A stretch of DNA of 64,000 nucleotides, from the NCBI GenBank assembly GCA_029781975.1, contig JAKOVQ010000033.1:1-64000 (forward strand), given 5' to 3'. Shown here one piece after another: positions 35,297 through 37,171 of this stretch. This stretch comes from Acidobacteriota bacterium. GTDB lineage: Bacteria > Acidobacteriota > Thermoanaerobaculia > UBA5066. The position numbers and the translations under genes are program-made. The stretch's first letter is position 1; each line of letters begins with the position of its first letter. Below the pieces are notes generated by a model. It made no database searches, was not told where the DNA came from, and saw only the letters and a program-made list of their open reading frames with translations.

Positions 35297-37171
35297 ATGA
35301 TGCGTGAAGCGTTCTACTCGGCGGTCCGAGGGACGGCGAACGTCGCCTGGAAGGGGCTCCAGTGGGCCAATCGGAAGGTCCCGGCCCGGTCCTTCCAGCC
35401 CGCGTGGGCGCCCGAGCCTTTGCCGAAGAGCCACGAGCGCTCCAAGCCGCCCCTCGGCTTCCCGCGGCGGACCGACTCCCTCTGCCCGGTCTGCACGCGC
35501 GAGGTCCGCGACGCGATCGTCCGCGGCCACGAGGACCTGAAGAAGCTGGTCGAGGGGCACCCGGGCGAGATCCCGGCCGACATCGTCCGGCGCGGGAACG
35601 AGATCTGGATGGTCAAGACGTGCCCGAAGCACGGCACGTTCGAGGACCTGATGTCGTGCGACGCCGAGTTCTTCGCCCGCCTCGAGAAGAACTTCTTCGG
35701 GCGCGACGTGAGGATCGGCAAGGACGCGCTCCACGACCACGGCTCGTCGTCGATCCGCTACGGGCGCGGCGCGGTCCTGACGGTCGACCTCACCAACCGC
35801 TGCAACATGATGTGCAACCCGTGCTTCATGGACGCCAACCAGGTCGGCTACGTCCACGAGCTGACCTGGGACGACGTGAAGCAGATCCTCGACAACGCCG
35901 CCTCGATCAAGCCCCGGCGGCAGATGTCGGTCCAGTTCTCCGGGGGCGAGCCGACCCTCTCGCCCCACTTCGTCGAGGCGATCCGGTACGCGCGGGAGAT
36001 CGGCTACTTCTCGGTCCAGTGCGCCACCAACGGCGTCCGCTTCGCCCAGGAGCCCGAGTTCGCGAAGGCCGCTTCGGACGCGGGGCTGCGCCTCGCCTAC
36101 CTCCAGTTCGACGGCGTCGGGAACGAGCACAACCAGCACCGGGGCGTCTCGAACCTCTACGACGTCAAGCTCCGCGCGCTCGACAACCTCAAGGCCGCCG
36201 GCATCGACGTCACCCTCGTCATCACGATCGTCAACTCGGTCAACAACGACCAGGTGGGCGACATCCTCCGCTTCGCGACGAAGAACATCGACAAGATCAA
36301 CGCCCTCTCCTTCCAGCCGGTCTCCTTCACCGGGCGCGACGAGGAGATCGACGAGGAGACCCGCAAGCGGCAGCGCTACACCCTGTCGCACCTGGCGCGC
36401 GACGTGAAGGAGCAGGCGGGCGTCGGCGAGCCGATGCGCGACTGGTTCCCCCTCTCGGCCTCGGGCCCCTTCTCCGACCTGAGGGACCTCCTCGGCGGCC
36501 TCGAGGCGCCGTGGGGCTCGCTCAAGTGCGGCTGCCACCCGAACTGCGGGATCGCCACGATGCTCCTCGTCCACGAGAAGACGGGCGAGGCCGTCCCGGT
36601 CACGCAGATCCTCGACGCGGACCAGCTGCTGCGCGACCTCACCGTCGTCACCGACGCGGCCCGCGGGCGCTTCCTGACGATCCTCCAGGCGGGGCTCGCC
36701 GTCGCCCGGAACATCCGCCCGGCCGGCATCCCGAAGAACCTCGGCGTCCTCGAGACGCTCAAGATCATGGACGGCCACACCGGCCGCTCGATGGGGATCG
36801 CCACCAAGGGGCGGTACGCGTGGCGGGTCCTCCTCGTGGCCGGGATGTGGTTCCAGGACCTCTTCAACTACGACTTCCGCCGGACGGAGATGTGCATCAT
36901 CCCGTACGGCACGCAGCTCGGCGAGATCTCCTTCTGCGCCTACAACACGGGCGCGGGGTGGCGCAACATCATCGAGGAGATGTACCAGACCGCCACGCTG
37001 GCGGAGTGGTACCGCGACAAGGGGCGCCACCCGATCTACGCGGGGGGCAAGGCCGTCCCCCTTCCGAGCTTCCGCCCCTCGCCGGTCCAGGCGCCCGAGC
37101 CCGAGGAGCTCCCCGCCGCGGCGCGGGTCTCCCTGGCGCTCCCGAGCTTCAGCCCGGCCGGGGGACGGTAG
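35297..37171 (+). CDS. Radical SAM protein resembling Tes/Mss membrane-lipid coupling enzymes
   Basis: 624 residues; ATG 35297 has GGGAGG 6 nt upstream. The N-terminal segment has a knuckle LCPVC (about 62-66) and KTCPKHGTFEDLMSCD (about 107-122). The radical SAM core starts TVDLTNRCNMMCNPCFMDAN with the CX3CX2C iron-sulfur ligands, then FSGGEPTLSPHF and QFDGVG. Further cysteines occur in LKCGCHPNCGIA and in EMCIIPYGTQLGEISFC, enough for extra Fe-S clusters. The order SLCP-C, TCP-HGxF, NRCN-C-PC matches archaeal Tes and its bacterial relatives (Mss), which join lipid tails by C-C bonds to make membrane-spanning lipids. Acidobacteria make iso-diabolic acid this way. Assignment here rests on motif order; other members of the Tes-like group have unknown roles. 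The 3' end overlaps the convergent kinase gene by 23 bp. Confidence 0.75.
   Translation: MMREAFYSAVRGTANVAWKGLQWANRKVPARSFQPAWAPEPLPKSHERSKPPLGFPRRTDSLCPVCTREVRDAIVRGHEDLKKLVEGHPGEIPADIVRRGNEIWMVKTCPKHGTFEDLMSCDAEFFARLEKNFFGRDVRIGKDALHDHGSSSIRYGRGAVLTVDLTNRCNMMCNPCFMDANQVGYVHELTWDDVKQILDNAASIKPRRQMSVQFSGGEPTLSPHFVEAIRYAREIGYFSVQCATNGVRFAQEPEFAKAASDAGLRLAYLQFDGVGNEHNQHRGVSNLYDVKLRALDNLKAAGIDVTLVITIVNSVNNDQVGDILRFATKNIDKINALSFQPVSFTGRDEEIDEETRKRQRYTLSHLARDVKEQAGVGEPMRDWFPLSASGPFSDLRDLLGGLEAPWGSLKCGCHPNCGIATMLLVHEKTGEAVPVTQILDADQLLRDLTVVTDAARGRFLTILQAGLAVARNIRPAGIPKNLGVLETLKIMDGHTGRSMGIATKGRYAWRVLLVAGMWFQDLFNYDFRRTEMCIIPYGTQLGEISFCAYNTGAGWRNIIEEMYQTATLAEWYRDKGRHPIYAGGKAVPLPSFRPSPVQAPEPEELPAAARVSLALPSFSPAGGR

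Follow-up and report, generated by a model that had tools for sequence, protein, structure and literature searches.

In many Acidobacteria a large part of the membrane consists of iso-diabolic acid. This acid is presumed to be the building block of the brGDGTs, whose fossil distributions serve as proxies for temperature and pH. The literature surveyed does not establish which enzyme forms iso-diabolic acid in this phylum. A gene in the window (the whole stretch of DNA analysed, 64,000 nucleotides) had been predicted to encode a Tes/Mss-like radical SAM enzyme, which raised the question of whether its product joins lipid tails and, if so, which ones. Tes is the archaeal tetraether synthase, which links a pair of lipid tails into a single lipid spanning the membrane, and Mss is the bacterial membrane-spanning lipid synthase. 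The host is a soil bacterium of the Acidobacteriota with an assembly of 5.37 Mb that is 96% complete.

A Tes-family protein and its metal ligands

With the Tes model the encoded protein falls into a group scoring roughly 320–350 bits, here called the long form; the long-form matches listed score about 318–348 bits. Residues of the Methanocaldococcus jannaschii enzyme are prefixed MjTes. The features of the locus are:

33956–35227, + strand: FAD-dependent oxidoreductase (DAO family), neighbouring gene about 70 bp upstream
35297–37171, + strand: long-form Tes-family radical SAM gene, ATG start, 624 aa, open reading frame confirmed
35300–35371, + strand: N-terminal helix, residues 2–25, outside the MjTes-matched part (model)
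35483–35632, + strand: rubredoxin-like site C63, C66, C109, H112, corresponding to MjTes C9, C12, C33, H36 (alignment; PMC9433317)
35723–35758, + strand: region matching the MjTes N-terminal [4Fe-4S] ligands C73, C77, C80, H83 (alignment)
35801–35824, + strand: radical SAM CX3CX2C motif (CNMMCNPC), C169/C173/C176 (ORF translation, alignment)
36527–36547, + strand: CGCHPNC, residues 411–417, with C417 corresponding to MjTes C338 (alignment)
36845–36937, + strand: Met517, Cys533 and Cys547, corresponding to MjTes M439, C455 and C470 (alignment)
37082–37168, + strand: disordered, poorly conserved tail, residues 596–624 (pLDDT under 50)

All motifs named in the original prediction (LCPVC, residues 62–66; TCPKHGTFEDL, 108–118; CX3CX2C; FSGGEPTLSP, 214–223; CGCHPNC) were located in the reading frame, which also had the predicted length of 624 aa. 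They are not chance occurrences, since the protein matched Pfam domains (HMPTM zinc ribbon at residues 56–120, 6.5e-16; Radical_SAM at 165–327, 7.7e-24), the Tes model as its top NCBIfam model (1.4e-100, 337 bits) and the sequence of PDB 7tol (M. jannaschii Tes/GDGT-MAS, 4.9e-71), the sole full-length relative with a structure, and since orthologues with 53–88% identity occurred across 80 named contigs. The named orthologues at 80–88% were metagenome-assembled genomes (MAGs) labelled Thermoanaerobaculia, Holophagales or Acidobacteria. Identity to MjTes was about 30%, and the score of 337 bits fell below the curated cut-off of 450 bits for the Tes equivalog NF045702.

An AlphaFold2 model of the protein (pLDDT 89.5, pTM 0.90) was built from 67 sequences including true Tes rows, which may bias the model in favour of Tes. 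Its top Foldseek match was 7tom (7e-38), followed by MoaA (1e-9). Alignment to 7tom with VIA-align gave a Z of 42.5 over 475 residues with an rmsd of 2.5, and the next family had a Z of 21.1. The Tes fold was found over most of the length, residues 55–578 of the model being matched to MjTes. The match at sequence level stands independently of the Tes rows behind the model. Compared with MjTes, the protein has about 55 more N-terminal residues, with the helix, and an added C-terminal tail. A membrane anchor was considered for the helix and rejected, as it was weakly amphipathic and 9.5% of shuffles reached the observed value, which is not significant. A conserved stretch (FxPxW..PLxKS..LGxPRxTD) lies after the helix. 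Contact of the helix with the membrane is possible.

The metal ligands of MjTes (MJ0619; PDB 7tol, 7tom) are published (PMC9433317), and MjTes was the residue reference when 120 long forms were aligned with 31 bacterial Tes. The radical SAM cysteines were kept in 120/120 long forms, as were Q340, S343 and R347 of the SAM loop, the equivalents of MjTes Q268, S271 and R275. The position of MjTes Arg210, which hydrogen-bonds 5'-dAH, held G, K or H. The C-terminal [4Fe-4S] ligands Cys417, Met517 (the labile ligand), Cys533 and Cys547 were likewise invariant (120/120). The CX2C...CX2H ligands of the rubredoxin-like site were present in 119 of the 120, the remaining row having a gap there; its spacer was 42 residues long in the window protein versus 20 in MjTes. 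Unlike MjTes and all 31 bacterial Tes, none of the 120 long forms had the N-terminal [4Fe-4S] ligands C73, C77, C80 and H83 (MjTes numbering). In the region of these lost ligands, two histidines new relative to MjTes, His146 and His148, were invariant in long forms. C411, also new, was specific to the long form (119/120), and C413 was common to most bacterial Tes. Fifteen alignment columns cleanly separated long form from bacterial Tes, and several of them (W518, Q520, P536, Q540) adjoined C-terminal cluster ligands; relative to MjTes, W518 replaces H440, Q520 replaces M442 and P536 replaces H458.

The homology to Tes that had been claimed is thus upheld by sequence, fold and catalytic ligands. 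The claim of extra clusters held in part: C533 and C547, the late cysteines, serve a single extra cluster rather than a pair, since the protein lacks the N-terminal [4Fe-4S] ligands of Tes. The predicted N-terminal knuckles are present, and both build a single rubredoxin-like site (C63, C66, C109, H112). The inventory predicted for the long form is therefore two [4Fe-4S] clusters and one mononuclear site, as against three and one in MjTes.

The long-form clade and its relatives

A Tes-model search over 396 acidobacterial genomes at 1e-25 gave matches in 211, of which 33 exceeded the cut-off (true Tes) and most others scored roughly 320–350 bits. A few lower-scoring matches may be TrsS-like. 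In a careful tree, all 26 long-form rows formed one clade (100/100) that branches inside bacterial Tes and has a stem 1.46 changes per site long. The same grouping came from a quick tree in which TrsS-like proteins (best NCBIfam model TrsS) were the outgroup. The exact sister of the clade is unsure because the long branch of a protein from genome G020 meets it in the careful tree. This divergent Tes-like protein (C17:18507–19964; L020, L171), from the same class as the window, scored 425 bits and kept the N-terminal cluster cysteines. The phylogeny with Tes that the original prediction had called for places the window protein inside bacterial Tes, and the new subgroup it had suggested appears as a 100/100 clade with its own ligand signature. 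The long form is a genuine subfamily, distinct and widespread, whose coupling machinery is conserved and whose phylogenetic profile is good. Near-identical long forms (L082, L090) were seen in MAGs that carry the labels Gemmatimonadota and Latescibacterota, and one from an Acidimicrobiia MAG (L087) was nested beside Pyrinomonas, in each case presumably through transfer or wrong labels.

The bacterial Tes of Acidobacteria (e.g. that of Koribacter, 38% identical) belong to the same superfamily and are sometimes gene neighbours of the long form, but the long form is a clade apart from them, and they keep the N-terminal cluster. Grouping with the Mss of Thermotoga maritima, the source of a tested mss (PMC11604127), was not upheld. 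The T. maritima genome had no Tes-model match at E ≤ 1e-25, whereas long forms typically match near 1e-95; Mss was represented here by this genome control alone. A search of plasmids for Mss gave matches at 26–29% only, mostly haloarchaeal. The same overall reaction is expected of Mss (T. maritima, Bacillota) and the long form, but no T. maritima protein reached the Tes/long-form level. Mss models are reported to have the Tes catalytic architecture (PMC13274423), which would make Mss a distant cousin of the long form.

Bacterial Tes homologues in general have already been proposed as candidates (PMC8941075). There, a homologue of Edaphobacter aggregans with 32% identity to Tes was proposed for membrane-spanning lipid synthesis (Zeng et al. 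2022); judged by that identity and its family, it is probably a long-form member. In its accessible part, the long form is not set apart from true Tes, nor is the loss of a cluster mentioned. New here are the division into two enzyme kinds, the loss of the cluster and the profile pointing to iso-diabolic acid.

Distribution, neighbourhood and iso-diabolic acid

The long form was present in 109 of 120 Acidobacteriaceae genomes, in all of the Luteitalea family (7/7) and in all of the Chloracidobacterium family (9/9). The 11 Acidobacteriaceae genomes without a match were drafts of about 20–320 contigs, and all single-contig genomes sampled carried the gene. At 58–60% identity it was found in Terriglobus saanensis, in Chloracidobacterium (recognised by its FMO protein and two replicons) and in genomes that we take to be Acidobacterium capsulatum, Koribacter versatilis and Luteitalea pratensis. 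For A. capsulatum and T. saanensis, it was the only Tes homologue found at 1e-15. A Pyrinomonas MAG also carried it. Within the window's order the gene was present in 19/19 genomes (65–100% identity), and it was absent from the 62 other genomes sampled in the window's class, one of which is G020. The family of Thermoanaerobaculum aquaticum lacked it (0/17 genomes), as did T. aquaticum itself, which belongs to the same class as the window. Subdivision 23, to which T. aquaticum belongs, is presumably among the seven surveyed for iso-diabolic acid, and is taken to be without it because it is missing from the list of positive subdivisions.

Among these seven, iso-diabolic acid was reported in subdivisions 1, 3, 4 and 6, and constituted 20–40% of the fatty acids in subdivisions 1 and 3 (PMC13274423). 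A. capsulatum makes it with brGDGT undetected (PMC13274423). In Edaphobacter it constitutes 12–30% of the fatty acids, and glycerol ethers were undetected in one study (PMC11354219). It is among the main fatty acids of Chloracidobacterium (PMC12816986) and is contained in Pyrinomonas methylaliphatogenes (PMC4644332). The predicted link to iso-diabolic acid in Acidobacteria is accordingly supported by taxonomic distribution, short of proof: as the long form follows taxonomy, shared ancestry could yield the same distribution, and independent gains or losses were few.

Four Acidobacteriaceae genomes carried a long form and a true Tes about 0.8–11 kb apart, within 13 kb and on one strand (11 kb in Koribacter, 0.8–6 kb in G295, G140 and G177); since they share a family, they are not independent. 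The pairing fits a division of labour in which the long form would lead to iso-diabolic acid and true Tes to ether lipids. Paired loci were recorded as L141, L161 and L162 and at G447 C1:980606–995143 (L232, L240).

The DAO-family gene upstream was retained by most members of the window's family and by some genomes of its order, not clade-wide, and a role with the enzyme is putative. Across 72 long-form loci no conserved lipid-gene neighbourhood was found; only the gene itself and its antisense shadows recurred widely. The neighbourhood gives no account of function, because no other cluster exceeded about 10–17 loci. Elsewhere in the host genome, a PlsA/Ger-type protein of about 1414 aa with two BcrAD_BadFG domains and DUF2229 was present (G000 C4:126695–127303; L203, L211), which makes ether-bond formation possible in the host; not all proteins of this architecture are Ger. 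Downstream in the window, a 1283-aa Ser/Thr kinase fused to an AAA ATPase domain (37149–41000, − strand) lies between the enzyme and a 6-pyruvoyl tetrahydropterin synthase homologue (41040–41414), with no clear counterpart at the same place in the close relatives examined. The synthase homologue adjoins a radical SAM protein with N2 and DUF2344 domains (41434–44097), and this pair is syntenic in the window's family. Another radical SAM domain (51 bits) was observed at 46997–47467.

Proposed reaction and alternative readings

MjTes joins two sp3 carbons by way of an intermediate in which a carbon of the substrate is bonded to a sulphur atom of an [Fe4S4] cluster (PMC9433317). The auxiliary cluster beside the lipid is the C-terminal one. 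Its pocket contained phosphatidic acid from Escherichia coli (PMC9433317), so acyl chains fit the fold. The long form retains the fold, the SAM site and the ligands of the C-terminal cluster, so the simplest inference is that it uses this chemistry too. From MjTes we infer its substrate, product and mechanism as follows. Membrane phospholipids would supply the substrate, two acyl chains that are saturated and iso-branched (mainly iso-C15:0). SAM at the C169/C173/C176 cluster would give a 5'-deoxyadenosyl radical, which would abstract a hydrogen atom from one terminal methyl group. The resulting carbon would be bound through sulphur to the C-terminal [4Fe-4S] cluster (C417, C533, C547 and labile M517), and a second radical, on the other chain, would attack the held carbon to form the C–C bond. 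The product would be membrane-spanning iso-diabolic acid (13,16-dimethyloctacosanedioic acid), with the methyl ends of the chains joined. Biochemical confirmation of bacterial Tes homologues had not been reported by 2025 (PMC11868695).

It is likely that the window protein couples two iso-fatty-acyl tails into iso-diabolic acid in this way, and the long-form branch is the best candidate for making this acid in Acidobacteria. This reading builds on the homology and fold, on the conserved ligands of the SAM site and the C-terminal cluster, on a clade that is separate and lacks the N-terminal cluster, and on a distribution that agrees with the reported iso-diabolic acid lineages. Since the roles of the remaining metallocofactors of MjTes are described as unclear (PMC9433317), loss of the N-terminal cluster alone is no argument against activity. 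More tentatively, the long form may be a class of its own among the enzymes that couple lipid tails, and may serve as iso-diabolic acid synthase in the majority of Acidobacteria (largely aerobic ones). In this class, a site of the invariant His146 and His148, perhaps with Cys411 and Cys413, would have replaced the N-terminal [4Fe-4S] cluster found at the surface of Tes.

Other substrates have to be weighed against coupling of iso-fatty-acyl tails. Given the long stem of the clade, a change of substrate is conceivable. The enzyme might act on another lipid or hydrocarbon chain, coupling or modifying it (by crosslinking or cyclising, for example), with iso-diabolic acid made elsewhere. The long stem and the replaced residues beside the C-terminal cluster ligands (W518, Q520, P536) would agree with this, as would the GMGT synthase, an example of related radical SAM lipid chemistry (PMC11186832). 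We nevertheless regard such a change as unlikely, as the C-terminal cluster ligands are all kept (120/120) and the distribution agrees with the iso-diabolic acid lineages. Similarly improbable is a brGDGT-type tetraether synthase that couples the ether-bound iso-C15 chains of diethers, with iso-diabolic acid coming from another enzyme, Mss-like or of no known kind. Solibacter usitatus makes brGDGTs, a synthesis proposed to be the work of one or both Tes homologues of this species (PMC10087280), and the PlsA/Ger-type protein of the host belongs to a class linked to ether-bond formation. The long form is, however, present in A. capsulatum, an iso-diabolic acid producer without detected brGDGT (PMC13274423), and in the family of Edaphobacter, with abundant iso-diabolic acid and no glycerol ethers detected in one study (PMC11354219).

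That the protein is a TrsS-type or SPASM-type maturase of peptides or proteins that merely resembles Tes is very improbable. The NCBIfam TrsS model does match (3e-64, 217 bits), but the Tes model scores 120 bits higher (337 bits), the TrsS-like proteins of the same class (best model TrsS) fall outside the group of Tes and long forms (SH-aLRT 100), and the full-length fold match is Tes.

With coupling of iso-fatty-acyl tails as the preferred reading, the clade narrows the enzyme question to a single gene in cultured species in which the long form is the only Tes homologue found. The signature is exact: the catalytic ligands of Tes are kept, the N-terminal cluster is lost, and H-x-H and C-x-C-H-P-N-C are present. 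With it, metagenomes could be screened for probable producers of iso-diabolic acid, among them MAGs labelled Gemmatimonadota, Latescibacterota, Calditrichota and KSB1.
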